The translations under genes were made by a program, and so were the position numbers. The notes under the pieces were generated by a model. The model ran no database searches, had not been told where the DNA came from, and saw only the letters and a list, made by a program, of their open reading frames with translations. From Prevotella sp. (GTDB taxonomy: Bacteria; Bacteroidota; Bacteroidia; Bacteroidales; Bacteroidaceae), in NCBI GenBank assembly GCA_017538105.1, contig JAFYJN010000035.1, positions 1 through 64,000 on the forward strand: DNA of 64,000 nt, given 5' to 3'. Shown here piece by piece: positions 33,821 through 39,819 of the stretch; the stretch's first letter is position 1, and each line of letters begins with the position of its first letter.

Positions 33821-34840
33821 ATGAAAGCGATACAAATAAGTGGATTAAGGGAGATGGGAGTCGTCGGAATTCCAGAGGAAGTGATGAGAGAAAATGAAGT
33901 GCTCCTTCGTTTGGAATATGTCGGTTTTTGCGGCTCTGACTTGAGTACTTATATGGGCAAGAATCCCATGGTGAAAATGCCCGTGATACCAGGTCATGAA
34001 GTAGGAGCCGTGATAGAGAAAGTGGGCCGTTCCGTTCCAGAAGGTCTGAAGCCAGGCATGGTGGTTACGGTGAACCCGTACACCAACTGCGGCAAATGCG
34101 CCTCGTGCAGAAACAAACGTGTCAATGCCTGTCAGCATAACGAGACGTTGGGCGTTCAGCGTAATGGTGCCATGCGCGAATACATCGCATTGCCATGGGA
34201 GAAAATCATTCCAGCAGGATTACTCACACCCCGCACCTGTGCCTTGATAGAGCCTATGAGTGTCGGCTTCCACGCAGTGAGCCGTGCGCAGGTAACGGAT
34301 ATCGACGTAGTGATGGTTATCGGATGCGGCATGGTGGGCATGGGAGCCGTTGTCCGTAGCGTACAACGCGGCGCCACCGTTGTCGCCGCCGACATCGACG
34401 ATGAAAAACTATCGTTGGCCAAGGAGATGGGTGCCTGTTATGTCATCAACACGAAGACAGAGGATGTCCATGCCCGTCTGCTAGAAATCACTTCTGGTTT
34501 CGGCCCCGACGTAGTGATAGAGGCTGTCGGCAGTCCCATCACCTACCAGATGGCCGTTAACGAGGTTGCCTTCACGGGGCGCGTCATTTGCATCGGCTAC
34601 GCCAAGGCCGAGGTATCTTTCCAGACCAAATTTTTCGTCCAGAAAGAGTTGGACATCCGTGGTTCACGCAATGCCGAGCCCAGTGATTTCCGTGCTGTAA
34701 TTCATTATTTGGAGAAAGGCTCTTGCCCTGTGGATTCCCTTATCAGTCGTGTGGTCAAGCCTGAAGAAGCCGCCACAGCCATGCAAAAGTGGTCTGAAGC
34801 ACCCGGCAAGGTATTTAGGATATTAGTGGATTTCACCTAA
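33821..34840 (+). CDS. Zinc-dependent alcohol dehydrogenase, L-galactonate 5-dehydrogenase-like
   Basis: A 339-residue medium-chain dehydrogenase. Catalytic zinc ligands are in GFCGSDLS and PGHEVGAVIE. The structural zinc cysteines are in NPYTNCGKCASCRNKRVNAC, and the nucleotide loop is VMVIGCGMVGMGAV. Position after the aldose dehydrogenase and lactonase suggests oxidation of L-galactonate to D-tagaturonate, the reaction of E. coli LgoD/YjjN. Tagaturonate reductase and later steps are not in this window. Threonine or sorbitol dehydrogenase activity would look alike in sequence. Confidence 0.82.
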   Translation: MKAIQISGLREMGVVGIPEEVMRENEVLLRLEYVGFCGSDLSTYMGKNPMVKMPVIPGHEVGAVIEKVGRSVPEGLKPGMVVTVNPYTNCGKCASCRNKRVNACQHNETLGVQRNGAMREYIALPWEKIIPAGLLTPRTCALIEPMSVGFHAVSRAQVTDIDVVMVIGCGMVGMGAVVRSVQRGATVVAADIDDEKLSLAKEMGACYVINTKTEDVHARLLEITSGFGPDVVIEAVGSPITYQMAVNEVAFTGRVICIGYAKAEVSFQTKFFVQKELDIRGSRNAEPSDFRAVIHYLEKGSCPVDSLISRVVKPEEAATAMQKWSEAPGKVFRILVDFT

Positions 34841-34852
34841 GGCTGACCACTT

Positions 34853-36352
34853 ATGAAACGATTGAATTGGCTTATTGCCTTCTTTCTAACCATTTCAACT
34901 ATGCCTATATTCGCCCAACGAAAATCCCCGATTGTCAGACCCGCCACACAGGCTGGACGATTTTATGAGAGCGACCCCAACGTGTTGCGACAAGAAGTGG
35001 ACGACTTTCTTCGCCGTCATGCCAAAGAGCGCTCTTATGACAACTTAGCCGCTGTTATCGTACCCCATGCCGGGCATTATTTCTCCGGCAACGTAGCTGC
35101 TTCTGCCTATATGGCCATCCCTTCTGATAGACATTACAAGCGCATTTTCCTGTTGGGTCCCAGCCATTACGAATGGCTTGAAGGTGCGAGCGTAAATACA
35201 GAAGCGGACTACTACGCCACTCCTCTTGGTAGGGTTAAGATAGACTGTGAGACCGCACTGGCACTGACCCATGAAGATAGTGTTTTCGCGTATCACAAGA
35301 AAGCCCACGACCGTGAACATTGCCTTGAGGTGCAGTTGCCTTTTCTCCAGCGGCGGATGAAAGAAGTTCCTCCCATTGTTCCCATCATCATCTCTACGAA
35401 TGACTATACGAAGTTGCAGCGAATGGCCGAGGTGCTGAAGCCCTATTTCACCGAAGAAAATCTCTTTGTAATCAGCAGTGACTTTTCCCACTACCCTTCA
35501 TATAAAGACGCTTACGAGGTAGACGGGAATACACGCGATGCTATACTTAGCGGTGATGTAGGCCGGTTCATTGCCACGATAGAAAGCAACAGCCGTCTTG
35601 GCAAGAAGAACCTCTCCACCAGTGCCTGCGGCGAGTTTCCCATCGTCACCCTGATGCTCATGCTCAATGACGAATATGAGATAAAACACTTGTTGTACCA
35701 AAATTCTGGTGACATCGACCACCATGACCCCACACGTGTGGTGGGCTACCATTCATTTGCCATTCTACGAAAAGCGAAAACCACGAAACAAGATTCGCCC
35801 ACTGGATTCACCCTTACAGACAGTGACCGCCAACAGTTAAAACAAATCGCAAAGGAAAGCATACTGTCTGTTTTTGACCACAAGACCTATCATCCAGATG
35901 GACAACATCTTAGAACGACAAATCCTACCCTTGCCCACCATTGCGGCGCTTTTGTCACCCTCACCCAAGAGGGTCGGCTTCGCGGTTGCATTGGTATGCT
36001 CAGTGGAACCCAACCCCTTTACCAAACTATCTCTGAGATGGCTAAAGCAGCCGCCTTTGAAGACCCACGTTTTCCCGACCTACGTCGTGAGGAAATGGAC
36101 ATTACAGACATTGAGATTTCTGTTCTCAGTCCGATGCGTAGGATTAAGAGTATTGACGAATTTGAGTTGCATCGCCACGGCATCTATATTGTGAAAGGTC
36201 ATCGCAGCGGCACGTTCCTTCCTCAAGTGGCAGACGAAGTGAACTGGACGAAAGAGGAGTTTCTCGGTCATTGTTCCCGCGACAAAGCAGGTCTTGGTTG
36301 GGATGGTTGGCGTACTGCCGAGATATATGTTTATGAAGCTGTCGTTTTCTGA
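34853..36352 (+). CDS. Exported MEMO-AMMECR1 fusion protein (AmmeMemoRadiSam proteins B and A)
   Basis: A 499-residue protein. Residues 1-22 look like a signal peptide (MKRLNWLIAFFLTISTMPIFA-Q). Residues of about 28-310 form a MEMO domain with the presumed metal ligands His72 (VPHAGHYFSG), His156 (HDREHCLEVQLPF) and His213 (SSDFSHYP). From about 322 to the end lies an AMMECR1 domain (LRGCIGML, DITDIEISVLSPM, VADEVNWTKEEFLGHC). The two are often separate or fused beside a radical SAM gene. Its ATG is 12 bp after the dehydrogenase stop and its stop overlaps the radical SAM ATG by 1 bp. Biochemical function is not established to my knowledge. Confidence 0.9.
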   Translation: MKRLNWLIAFFLTISTMPIFAQRKSPIVRPATQAGRFYESDPNVLRQEVDDFLRRHAKERSYDNLAAVIVPHAGHYFSGNVAASAYMAIPSDRHYKRIFLLGPSHYEWLEGASVNTEADYYATPLGRVKIDCETALALTHEDSVFAYHKKAHDREHCLEVQLPFLQRRMKEVPPIVPIIISTNDYTKLQRMAEVLKPYFTEENLFVISSDFSHYPSYKDAYEVDGNTRDAILSGDVGRFIATIESNSRLGKKNLSTSACGEFPIVTLMLMLNDEYEIKHLLYQNSGDIDHHDPTRVVGYHSFAILRKAKTTKQDSPTGFTLTDSDRQQLKQIAKESILSVFDHKTYHPDGQHLRTTNPTLAHHCGAFVTLTQEGRLRGCIGMLSGTQPLYQTISEMAKAAAFEDPRFPDLRREEMDITDIEISVLSPMRRIKSIDEFELHRHGIYIVKGHRSGTFLPQVADEVNWTKEEFLGHCSRDKAGLGWDGWRTAEIYVYEAVVF

Positions 36353-37227
36353 TGGAGAAACACGAATGCCATTATTATCAACTGTTGGACGACGGAGTCA
36401 TGGAATGTCTGCTCTGCCCCCACCACTGCCACATTGCAAAGGGCAAGACAGGACGCTGTCGCAGTCGTCGGAATGACGGCAATCGTCTAGTCAGTGAGGT
36501 CTATGGCCGTCCTTGTGCTGTTGCCATTGACCCCATCGAAAAAAAGCCCCTGTATCATTTCCATCCCGGCACGAAATGTCTGTCCATAGCTTGCACGGGC
36601 TGCAATTTCCATTGTCTGAACTGCCAGAACCACGATATTTCACAAGCTGCACCTAATGAGGTAACTGTAGTAGACTTATCACCCGAACAAGTGGTCGATC
36701 TTTGCATCGAACATAATTGTCCCGGCATTGCCTACACCTATACTGAGCCTCTTACTTATATAGAATATGTTGCGGATATCGCCCGACTTGCCCACGAACG
36801 CGGATTGTGGAATATCCTAGTGAGCGCCGGATATGTTTGCAAAAAACCCCTACGTGACCTTTTGCCTTTTCTCGATGCAGCCAATATCGACCTGAAGTCG
36901 TTCAGTGACACTACCTATAGGGAGGTGAGCGGCGGTAGGTTGTCCATAGTGTTAGACACTATTCTCGCTCTGCGCGATGCCGGTGTATGGTTGGAAATCA
37001 CCAACCTGGTCATTCCTGGAGTGAACGATGATGCCGACGGAATAAGTTCTATGTGCAAATGGTTAGTTAACCATCATTTGGAAGGAGCTCCACTCCATTT
37101 CAGTCGTTTCTTCCCACAGTACAAGATGAGACATATTCCCCCTACCCCGTTGAAGACCTTGGCTATAGCCAAACGTATCGCTGAGGAAGAAGGCATCAAA
37201 CACGTATATTTAGGCAATGTGGGGTGA
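36352..37227 (+). CDS. AmmeMemoRadiSam system radical SAM enzyme
   Basis: A 291-residue pyruvate-formate-lyase-activase-like radical SAM protein. The N-terminal cysteines CLLCPHHCHIAKGKTGRC may hold a second metal or cluster. The SAM cluster is Cys84, Cys88 and Cys91 in GCNFHCLNCQNHD. TYTEPLTYIEY and DAANIDLKSFSD are family motifs. It has no signal peptide and is cytoplasmic. It is translationally coupled to the exported MEMO-AMMECR1 protein, its obligate genomic partner in many genomes. Its target is unknown. Confidence 0.9.
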   Translation: MEKHECHYYQLLDDGVMECLLCPHHCHIAKGKTGRCRSRRNDGNRLVSEVYGRPCAVAIDPIEKKPLYHFHPGTKCLSIACTGCNFHCLNCQNHDISQAAPNEVTVVDLSPEQVVDLCIEHNCPGIAYTYTEPLTYIEYVADIARLAHERGLWNILVSAGYVCKKPLRDLLPFLDAANIDLKSFSDTTYREVSGGRLSIVLDTILALRDAGVWLEITNLVIPGVNDDADGISSMCKWLVNHHLEGAPLHFSRFFPQYKMRHIPPTPLKTLAIAKRIAEEEGIKHVYLGNVG

Positions 37228-37247: not shown

Positions 37248-38522
37248 TCATTGCCGTCGTGATTTGATATACGACCTTACATCATTCCAGTGGTAATAAG
37301 GAGGTGTTTTCGTATTGATGCCAGGTATAGTGGTCTCATTTTCGTTGAGAAGGAATTTCACCAAAATATCGTTGGATTGATTCTTTCGATAGAACACCAT
37401 CTGAATGTTCGCCGCCATGGGTATTATCTTATCGATGGAGATGTACTTATATAGGTTTTCCAAGTCGTTCGTAGCCCCCATAGCCTCTTTCAGTCCAAGC
37501 ACGTAAGCCAGCGGTAACACAGAGCTGTCGTGGCTGAAACGTAACGTCATGGCCGGTTTTCCCTCCATTAATACCTTGTCAGCGGAAGCCATGATGCTGT
37601 CGACCACTTCGTTGAGGATATGGTAATATGGTGCGCTTCCCGGTACCAGTCCCGTATCGAGCAGCCACGACACGTTGTAGCCTTGCCACATATCGAACAG
37701 TTCGTCGGGTGTGAAAATGTCAATGAGCGAAATACCCAGTTCCGGCACGTTCTGCAAGTCTTCCGCCACATTGTACAACGCCTCCATGAGTTCCCTACCA
37801 TTGAAAGAGGATGTTAGTTTTGAAGTATCGGTAATCAAAGAAGCCACCAAACGTTGTGGATTGTGAGCCCTTTCAAAGATCACCTTCGCCTGTTGCCACA
37901 TCGCATCGCTTTCTGGAGAAGCCCCTGGTTTGAGACTTAAGTCCTCCACCACATATTTCATATCGTGTTTGCTGGCATCGAGTGTTATCTCCATTGCCGG
38001 ATTCAGCGACTGCATTTCCATGCAGAAATTGAACATGCTGAGCATACACCTTCGTGATGTCGACGATTTGGCTTCAACTTGTAACGGTTGCGAAAGGAGG
38101 TCATTAAAGCGTTCATACATACGATGCGCTATTTCACGGTGTTGTCGTCCTCCCAATTCCGTCAAATCGCCATCTCGGTGCCATGCGTCGGCATATCCAA
38201 TACGCAGTTTTTCGAGAACCTCCTTTCCCTTTGGCGAAAGCAATCCCACATTCTGTGCGCTATCAAGCATATTAATAGCTGTGAGGTAGTATTGGTTATT
38301 CGACATATAACGCGATCCATGTCGGGCATAATGGAAAATATAGAAAGGCTCATATCCCGCTGGTGGCGGAGAGAGTTTCTGTTGTCGTGGCCCTGGGTAA
38401 GCAAAGTAGTTGGAACCTGTCCTGTAGATGTCATTGAGCATTTCTTTTTTGGTGGTCTGTGCCCAAGTGGCCGTCGCCATCATCAACGCGAGGGCCACAA
38501 CCATTATCCTATTGTTTTTCAT
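37248..38522 (-). CDS. Histidine acid phosphatase (phytase-like), copy 1
   Basis: A protein of 424 residues from the ATG at 38522 (a start two codons upstream is possible). Signal peptide to TWA-Q. The clade-2 histidine phosphatase motifs are the nucleophile His68 in HYARHGSRY, the arginine in SSTSRRCMLSM and the proton donor in RFSHDSSVLP. The HD pair is as in AppA-type phytases, not the HAE of MINPP enzymes. It probably removes phosphate from phytate or other sugar phosphates in the periplasm or outside. It overlaps the upstream paralogue by 14 bp. Confidence 0.87.
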   Translation of the reverse strand: MKNNRIMVVALALMMATATWAQTTKKEMLNDIYRTGSNYFAYPGPRQQKLSPPPAGYEPFYIFHYARHGSRYMSNNQYYLTAINMLDSAQNVGLLSPKGKEVLEKLRIGYADAWHRDGDLTELGGRQHREIAHRMYERFNDLLSQPLQVEAKSSTSRRCMLSMFNFCMEMQSLNPAMEITLDASKHDMKYVVEDLSLKPGASPESDAMWQQAKVIFERAHNPQRLVASLITDTSKLTSSFNGRELMEALYNVAEDLQNVPELGISLIDIFTPDELFDMWQGYNVSWLLDTGLVPGSAPYYHILNEVVDSIMASADKVLMEGKPAMTLRFSHDSSVLPLAYVLGLKEAMGATNDLENLYKYISIDKIIPMAANIQMVFYRKNQSNDILVKFLLNENETTIPGINTKTPPYYHWNDVRSYIKSRRQ

Positions 38523-39819
38523 TGTCATTGGATTTATAGGTTATATTGGCATTTTCCAGCATTTCACTGTAATAACGTTCCACGTCCGTCCAGTGGTAGA
38601 AGGGGAAACTATCCGTTTGAATAGGTATTGACGTTTCATTTTCATTCATCAGGAATTTCACAAGAACATCGCCGCCACCTTGTTTTCTAAAGAATACCCA
38701 TTGCACATTCCCCGCCATGGGAATCAATCGGTACAACGCGAATGAATTGTGCAGGTTCTCCATGTCGTCGGTAGCATGAATAGCTTCCTCCACCCCCATG
38801 ATGTATGCGAAAGGCAACAGCACGCTGTCATGTCCGAAGCGCAGACGAACCCCCTCTTTGCCCGAATTCACCATTTGTCGTGCCTCGTCAATGAAATTTC
38901 TCAGAAGTGGGTATATGGCATAGTAATTGGGTTGCGCTCCCGGCATGAGTCCCTCCCATAGGCACCAGCTGGCGTTGTATGCCCTGAATCCATCAATAAT
39001 CTCATCGTCTGTCAACACATCATTAAACGATAATTGAAGTTCCGGCAGGCAAAGCAAGTCAGCATTGACCTCCCACAAGTTATCAGCCAATATATGAGGA
39101 TCAACAAGTTTTTTCGCCTTGGTCGTGTCGTTGAAAAGGAGCGTCATCAAACGTTTCCCGTTAAGCATCCTGTGTTTAAAATCTGACAGTATGTCGTACA
39201 GCTCACCATCTCTCTTCGACTTGGGAATGGCGATGCTGTCGTTGGGTGTGAGGTAATACATATCGTGCTCGCTCGCATTCATCTCAATGTCAAGCAGCGG
39301 GTTCATCGTCAACAGTTCCAAGCAGCAATTTGCCATGCTGAGCATACATCGTCTCACTGTCGAAGAGTTGGCCTTTACCTTCAGCGGTTTCGTCATCAGC
39401 GATGGATAGTTAGTCACCATGCGATGGGCAATGGCCCGATGCTGTCGTGCTCCCAGCTGTGTCAGGTCACCATAGCGTTTATTGGCATCTTCGTTTACGA
39501 TTCTCATTTTCTGCAGGGTCTCTTCACCTGTTGGTGTAAGCAATCCCATGGAATGTGCCGAATCGAGTTTATTGAAGAGGTTTTTGTACACGTCATCATC
39601 GGTCATGTAGCGAGCGCCGTGCCGACCATAATGAGTGATATAGAATGGTTCGTATCCAGCTGGCGGTGGAGTAACATGCCCCGACGGATTGGGATAATTA
39701 CAATAGTTCGAGCTTGCCAATTCTGGATGTGCCAGCAGTTCTGCCCTCGATGTCTGTGCCTGTACGGCCATAGATGCCATAACGAACACTATGAATAGCC
39801 ATGTTTTCCGTTTTTTCAT
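38509..39819 (-). CDS. Histidine acid phosphatase (phytase-like), copy 2
   Basis: A 436-residue paralogue of the next gene in the operon. Signal peptide to VQA-Q. Motifs are His67 in HYGRHGARY, SSTVRRCMLSM and RFGHDSVLLP. The two proteins align over their whole length (PPPAGYEPFYI, LMTLLF/LVASLI, KFLMNENET/KFLLNENET), so a tandem duplication followed by divergence is likely. The gene starts with MKKRKTW at 39819 and is the first of the pair. No promoter box was recognised upstream. Confidence 0.87.
   Translation of the reverse strand: MKKRKTWLFIVFVMASMAVQAQTSRAELLAHPELASSNYCNYPNPSGHVTPPPAGYEPFYITHYGRHGARYMTDDDVYKNLFNKLDSAHSMGLLTPTGEETLQKMRIVNEDANKRYGDLTQLGARQHRAIAHRMVTNYPSLMTKPLKVKANSSTVRRCMLSMANCCLELLTMNPLLDIEMNASEHDMYYLTPNDSIAIPKSKRDGELYDILSDFKHRMLNGKRLMTLLFNDTTKAKKLVDPHILADNLWEVNADLLCLPELQLSFNDVLTDDEIIDGFRAYNASWCLWEGLMPGAQPNYYAIYPLLRNFIDEARQMVNSGKEGVRLRFGHDSVLLPFAYIMGVEEAIHATDDMENLHNSFALYRLIPMAGNVQWVFFRKQGGGDVLVKFLMNENETSIPIQTDSFPFYHWTDVERYYSEMLENANITYKSNDNEKQ

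Follow-up and report, generated by a model that had tools for sequence, protein, structure and literature searches.

The window analysed here, a 64,000-nucleotide stretch of contig JAFYJN010000035.1 (assembly GCA_017538105.1), carries an AmmeMemoRadiSam system that appears to be extracytoplasmic, here in a form with two genes: a fusion of MEMO and AMMECR1 with a predicted signal peptide, followed by a radical S-adenosylmethionine (SAM) enzyme that has none. We suggest with fair confidence that this module, a secreted fusion with a cytosolic radical SAM enzyme, was reduced from a branch in which both partners bear export signals. What is new here is that branch, an AmmeMemoRadiSam lineage with predicted export of every part, the radical SAM enzyme included.

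The human homologues of this system, MEMO1 and AMMECR1, are of medical interest, and we know of no settled function or activity for AmmeMemoRadiSam. In the usual picture, radical SAM chemistry, with its demand for SAM and a strong reductant, takes place only in the cytosol. An exported radical SAM enzyme, if real, would break this picture and raise the question of how SAM gets there. If the whole branch is indeed envelope-directed, the search for the substrate narrows to the envelope. The phylum also offers natural contrasts, since the signals may be found on the two partners together, only on the fusion, or on neither.

Results

Identity and predicted export of the fusion

The fusion (34853..36352, forward strand, 499 residues) unites AmmeMemoRadiSam proteins B and A in a single polypeptide. 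It scores 223.6 bits against NCBIfam TIGR04336 (cut-off 26) and 160.3 bits against TIGR04335 (cut-off 99). The radical SAM enzyme (36352..37227, forward strand, 291 residues) scores 322.3 bits against TIGR04337 (cut-off 220) and carries its CX3CX2C cluster motif as CNFHCLNCQN. The fusion's stop codon and the radical SAM start overlap by 1 bp, and the fusion is the sole match (one copy) in its genome assembly. Pfam places the MEMO domain (PF01875, above cut-off) at residues 31-301 (34943..35755, forward strand) and the AMMECR1 domain (PF01871, above cut-off) at residues 331-499 (35843..36349, forward strand), with an LRGC motif (C379) that is invariant in 15/15 aligned rows.

Human MEMO1 (7KQ8, 3BCZ) belongs to the same family. 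Its iron/copper ligands H49, H81 and C244, as given in PMC11081632, align with H72, H105 and C259 of the fusion, and the serine of the C244S mutant (7M8H) falls in the C259 column. The bacterial protein differs in its predicted export and in its fusion to AMMECR1. An extradiol (LigB-type) dioxygenase was rejected, since the expected set of iron ligands, two histidines and one carboxylate, is not complete: cysteine C259 stands at the carboxylate position. PMC11081632 reports no dioxygenase activity of MEMO1 with the substrates tried, and neither 'AMMECR1' nor 'radical SAM' appears in its main text.

All signal and cleavage-site calls in this work are predictions by simple rules that we wrote for it. 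The Sec-type signal peptide predicted for the fusion covers residues 1-21, MKRLNWLIAFFLTISTMPIFA (34853..34915, forward strand), with cleavage expected before Q22. The ATG is preceded, at a distance of 6 bp, by an in-frame TGA (34844-34846); the hydrophobic segment is therefore read from the first codons and is not buried within a longer protein. The segment terminates in x-x-A|Q (...TMPIFA|Q), consistent with the Bacteroidetes Q-rule; about 71% of signal-peptidase-I substrates across the phylum expose a glutamine, according to the mBio 2023 study (PMC10653852). Under one rule applied to 80 Prevotella loci, 109/340 open reading frames (ORFs) with a single hydrophobic N-terminal segment have the x-x-A|Q ending, compared with 11/442 of those without a segment. 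Within the window the A|Q ending occurs in 12 of 29 ORFs with such a segment, the fusion included, and the two nearest relatives (L051 and L052) share the ending ...FAQRKS. The window's fusion is very probably exported, and this copy looks cleaved and soluble, not anchored by a lipobox. The fusion, the signal-like N-termini, the adjacency of the genes and their co-occurrence were read directly from sequence; actual export is what we infer from them.

The sequence-only reading of this DNA had already given the gene coordinates, the MEMO-AMMECR1 fusion, a 12-bp gap to the gene upstream and the 1-bp overlap, all of which were borne out. Its apparently cleavable signal peptide is supported, as a rule-based prediction, by the upstream stop, the Q-rule ending and the conservation in L051 and L052. 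It was also right that the radical SAM partner, which begins MEKHECHYYQ..., has no signal.

The same state across the genus

Our same-genus set comprised 80 named loci, the window and 12 wide loci of other relatives. Removing duplicates on the basis of the C-terminal 150 residues encoded by the fusion frame, dropping N-termini cut by contig ends and requiring a radical SAM gene within 9 kb left 80 loci. Signal counts are the raw output of one fixed rule, which by eye is wrong or doubtful at L263, L040, L310 and L189, at L288, where it overlooks a lipobox, and at L060, whose hydrophobic N-terminus it scores as no signal. A signal-bearing fusion occurs together with a signal-less radical SAM enzyme in 72/80 loci; the predicted separation of the partners, to which the sequence-only reading drew attention, is thus a real puzzle and is kept by most of the sampled genus. 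The rule finds no fusion signal in the remaining eight, of which seven (including L060, with its hydrophobic fusion N-terminus) have a signal-less radical SAM enzyme and one has an enzyme called, doubtfully, membrane-like. A rougher rule, used only for this breakdown, assigned the N-termini of 85 distinct same-genus fusion copies to lipobox (46, e.g. MNSC|NGQ), cleavable or membrane-type (25) and none (14). Examples of the lipobox form are L059 and L065, and Prevotella sp. ne3005 has a hydrophobic N-terminus. The suggestion that the fusion might stay anchored suits many relatives but not the window's own copy.

When the window is counted together with the 80 named Prevotella loci, the fusion and radical SAM genes adjoin in 75 of the 81: 41 have the 1-bp overlap and 34 are adjacent with other spacing. 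Two pairs lie far apart, and four loci have no radical SAM gene. A genome-wide check of these four and of L079, where an exported fusion is followed by a broken radical SAM gene, found a copy above cut-off elsewhere in two genomes, the two pieces of the L079 gene, and no copy in the other two genomes. A MEMO match and a TIGR04337 match above cut-off were found in the same 25 of 60 genomes (the window's and 59 relatives). The surroundings vary. Upstream genes, callable in 80 of the 81 loci, fall into 57 unrelated clusters, and the 74 callable downstream genes likewise into 57; no further conserved partner was found beside the Prevotella pair, the largest family being present in 8/80 upstream and 7/74 downstream positions. 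The conserved unit in the genus is the pair of fusion and radical SAM enzyme, not the neighbourhood.

Predicted export signals on both partners in relatives beyond the genus

At E <= 1e-40, 67/296 phylum genomes and at least 119/247 order genomes have a radical SAM match; the window's genome is in both samples. Surroundings were taken for 160 places (12 of them same-genus) and 20 more, a subset of the matched places. They were analysed with profiles built in this work and one fixed signal rule, with the radical SAM gene within 9 kb of the fusion or MEMO gene.

Thirty-seven loci outside the genus encode an exported fusion, and in 35 of them the radical SAM enzyme is also signal-bearing; it is signal-less in two. 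Among the 35, 30 have a radical SAM enzyme with an N-terminus typical of twin-arginine translocation (Tat) together with a gene for a polytopic membrane protein that we call SpeE-like (see below), one has the Tat-type enzyme without this gene, two have a Tat-type enzyme plus a second, signal-less copy and two have a membrane-anchored enzyme. Where the fusion is signal-less (ten loci), so is the radical SAM enzyme in eight; it is Tat-type in L288, whose fusion shows on reading the lipobox that the rule missed, and membrane-like in L263, where the start is doubtful. Standalone MEMO genes (23 loci) were accompanied by no signal on either partner in 20 cases and were exported with a Tat-type enzyme and a SpeE-like gene in two; the last, L189, probably has a wrong start. 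Taken together, both partners have predicted export signals in 35 of the 47 sampled fusion loci outside the genus. The sequence-only reading described the separation of the partners correctly for the genus and missed these other Bacteroidota, with their radical SAM export signal and third, membrane-embedded protein.

In 61 radical SAM enzymes the motif [K/R]-R-x-F-[I/L/V] precedes a hydrophobic stretch that is often rich in glycine. Our Tat rule fixed K/R, R, then F/L/M, then I/L/V/M. Within the choice that this left, F is found in 61/61, K/R comes next in 55/61 and the preceding residue is S/N/T/D in 58; the full S-R-R-x-F-[L]-K or -R pattern is seen in, for example, L049 and L303, and L258 is a further Tat-type case. 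A comparable rule, limited to 45 residues counted from the first ATG, is satisfied by 18/1058 of the remaining ORFs at loci outside the genus. TatC was found in 48/50 searched genomes, including three outside the intended set (all positive), and in the window's genome. Its presence is common in the group and shows capacity only. Within the genus, TatC occurs in 12/13 fusion carriers and 13/23 non-carriers (0/4 in one search, 13/19 in another). Loss of the Tat system was rejected as the cause of the signal-less Prevotella enzyme, given the TatC of the window's genome.

Some loci are more elaborate. L289 has three Tat-type radical SAM genes in tandem and L319 has two, in each case with a SpeE-like gene in the locus, and in L044 (318-2489) and L267 a Tat-type and a signal-less radical SAM gene stand in tandem behind one exported fusion and a SpeE-like gene. 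In G038 (L043, L330) the fusion is lipoprotein-type, and the sole radical SAM gene above cut-off lies about 19 kb away on the same contig. The Tat-type enzymes of L161 (7839-9092) and L162 (8068-9315) contain a heme-c-like CxxCH between the signal and the enzyme domain, which was seen in only these 2 of 259 radical SAM frames. Their C-terminal cysteine pairs are absent from the window's enzyme, whose profile match stops at model position 288/349, earlier than most matches outside the genus.

A SpeE-like membrane protein accompanies the Tat-type enzyme

The gene between or beside the fusion and the Tat-type radical SAM gene encodes a polytopic membrane protein of mostly 700-870 residues; 'SpeE-like' is our label for this spermidine-synthase-like protein. 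In six such proteins scanned, the spermine/spermidine synthase domain (PF01564) was the only Pfam domain above cut-off, and hydrophobic segments flank it on both sides. An alignment of 46 sequences mostly keeps the glycine motif of the nucleotide-binding loop. It shows a proline-containing P-x-P stretch at what we take to be the position of the catalytic aspartates of true spermidine synthases.

The occurrence of the gene goes closely with an export signal on the radical SAM enzyme. Outside the genus, enzymes with a SpeE-like gene in the locus are Tat-type in 47 of 51 cases and anchored in two more, compared with 14/116 Tat-type among those without it. A genome-wide search of 30 genomes found the gene in 13/15 Tat-type genomes, 12 of which had been chosen because the locus showed no SpeE-like gene (in the other three it was already known), and in 1/15 others (G051, a weak partial match). 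It was found in 0/13 same-genus fusion carriers and has no match in the window's genome. No further conserved neighbour of the three-gene form emerged, the largest neighbour family being present in 5/47 loci. Because the SpeE-like protein is almost confined to radical SAM enzymes with an export signal, it probably serves that enzyme; that it supplies it with SAM is speculative.

Direction of change

The radical SAM tree was calculated by a quick method with a midpoint root from 120 rows, which include 15 same-genus loci and 10 of 60 phylum loci; 14 named order loci, most of which belong to the signal-less clade, are not among them. Prevotella and L332 (99%) share an 86-row group with the main Tat-type clade (97%). 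Outside this group come first membrane-anchored enzymes (83%) and then Tat-type ones, including one lipobox-like call (87%). The same 86-row grouping (99%) is recovered in a faster tree with 167 rows. Since the deep members around the Prevotella group have export signals, loss of the signal in Prevotella is favoured. Most likely the Prevotella form would have lost both the SpeE-like gene and the Tat-type signal, a direction of change that we infer from this topology.

The opposite course would make the Prevotella state primitive, with the exported fusion first and the Tat-type signal and SpeE-like gene as later gains in a sister lineage. We regard it as the less probable course, one that still carries appreciable weight. 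In the fusion tree (72 rows, 22 same-genus; L288 labelled exported and L310 none, both by hand), Prevotella, G038 and G539 group beside the SpeE-like clade, not inside it, and loss is not proved. The radical SAM tree speaks against this course, in that the lineages just outside the 86-row group also have export signals.

Besides the fusion tree, several observations weigh against our overall reading of the module and of the exported branch. In the radical SAM tree, support is down to 83 and 87% at the two deeper branches, and a sign test for joint change of the two signals had at most five independent pairs and was not significant. The radical SAM enzyme of G038 sits on a long branch and groups with the signal-less standalone-MEMO clade despite its lipoprotein-type fusion. 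Outside the genus, an exported fusion is paired with a signal-less radical SAM enzyme in L332, a convincing instance of the Prevotella-like state in another family, and in L310, where the N-terminus is doubtful. The first residue of the 61 Tat-type motifs is K in 48 and R in 13; native Tat signals can have lysine in place of the first arginine. No TatC match was found in G382 and G427 (listed as 85% and 93% complete), both of which have Tat-type radical SAM enzymes, and the genome-wide search found no SpeE-like gene in the Tat-type genomes G400 and G503 (one family). Finally, human MEMO1 has the same metal ligands and, to our knowledge, no radical SAM partner in humans; the core chemistry therefore need not depend on such a partner.

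Discussion

We propose that the window's fusion is a secreted metalloprotein and that the cytosolic radical SAM enzyme either acts on the fusion ahead of its export or makes a product that gets to it. The fusion would be secreted by Sec into the periplasm, exposing Q22, and the radical SAM partner would remain in the cytosol. Tentatively, the enzyme may meet the fusion before or during secretion and modify it, or a ligand that it carries out; sulfatase maturases modify secreted sulfatases likewise. It is somewhat less likely that the enzyme makes a small molecule which crosses the membrane to the fusion. For the wider group we would cautiously picture a Tat-exported radical SAM enzyme beside a Sec- or lipoprotein-type MEMO-AMMECR1 in many Bacteroidota, with the SpeE-like protein bringing SAM or a SAM-derived group across the membrane; in Prevotella the radical SAM step would then be back in the cytosol and the membrane protein dispensable.

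Contact between the partners may not be needed at all. The fusion and the radical SAM enzyme could catalyse different steps on the two sides of the membrane, with an intermediate crossing between them. The conservation of the pair despite its different predicted compartments would suit such a scheme, as would the lack of any further conserved neighbour of the three-gene form. We nevertheless consider it rather unlikely, because no conserved gene able to carry an intermediate stands beside the Prevotella pair and because in other families both partners have the same predicted compartment.

Alternatively, the fusion could work in the cytosol, its N-terminal segment being an inefficient or dual-targeting relic. 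The eight same-genus loci without a signal, which include Xylanibacter ruminicola D31d (L095) and Prevotella P6B1 (L102), point in this direction, and D31d belongs to a small clade of four signal-less fusion copies. Such decay is improbable: the other 72 loci retain their signals, and although these differ in sequence, a lipobox often recurs in them, as does the A|Q ending within the window's lineage.

Compared with AmmeMemoRadiSam as represented by its three families, all of which are above cut-off in the window in adjacent genes, the window's system has two parts fused and the secretion signal on the fusion only; its relatives add the radical SAM signal and the SpeE-like protein. It shares the fusion signal with the exported three-gene branch and lacks both the Tat-type or anchoring radical SAM N-terminus and the SpeE-like gene. 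The archaeal AMMECR1-family structures 1ZQ7, 1VAJ and 1WSC match the AMMECR1 half of the profile and are separate chains named hypothetical proteins.

The next-best family for the window's radical SAM enzyme is that of the glycyl-radical enzyme activases (pyruvate formate-lyase activase group), represented by TIGR02493. We rejected this assignment at 55.2 bits (cut-off 231.75), and no glycyl radical enzyme was found among the neighbours scanned with Pfam and NCBIfam. Anaerobic sulfatase maturases, in which a cytosolic radical SAM enzyme acts on a protein that is secreted later, serve as an analogy only. A sulfatase-type maturase was rejected, there being no SPASM or maturase match at E <= 0.001 in Pfam or NCBIfam.

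Among the papers listed in searches of the open-licence literature, we met no description of an exported AmmeMemoRadiSam system. A comparative paper on the Memo superfamily from 2019 reportedly makes a link to base or isoprenoid modification. PMC7159879 refers to 'recently-described Memo-Ammecr1 systems' and cites a 2019 paper, and PMC12710340 mentions Memo-like domains fused to peptide-binding RRE domains. In PMC10924467 the mention of radical SAM is unrelated.

Neighbouring genes and source of the window

The gene that ends 12 bp upstream of the fusion, on the same strand, encodes a zinc-dependent alcohol/polyol dehydrogenase (33821..34840, forward strand; PF00107/PF08240), a neighbour in a small lineage only and outside the module. 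The sequence-only reading had called it L-galactonate-type. Its best NCBIfam match, PRK10083, reaches 173.4 bits, below the cut-off of 376, and therefore only the broader designation can be claimed.

That reading also took the linkage to sugar-acid oxidation as a hint at the substrate, and named a gene order unique to this genome as the finding that would count against it. The outcome comes close to that: the dehydrogenase is the upstream gene in 3/80 loci, namely the window and its near relatives L051 and L052, and it is this shared order that stops short of uniqueness. Homologues of the dehydrogenase, amidohydrolase and GH95 genes occur in 3/92 searched loci, two of which are one and the same contig. 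The sugar link is a trait of one small lineage, and we rejected the sugar operon as a general clue to functional context. That a sugar-acid operon defines the substrate, so that the module acts on an oxidised sugar, is very unlikely, since the 12-bp same-strand spacing in the window and the identical order in L051 and L052 are set against a different upstream gene in 77/80 loci.

The window very probably comes from a rumen-type Prevotella. Its nearest named loci, most of which bear the label Prevotella or Prevotellaceae, come from samples of the rumen or another forestomach of buffalo, yak, cattle, goat, sheep and deer. Downstream of the radical SAM gene, on the minus strand (37248-39819), lie two adjacent genes of the histidine-phosphatase family, both with A|Q signal-like N-termini. 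High identity to this pair was seen only in L031/L051 (nearest relative); in L078 it is 30%.

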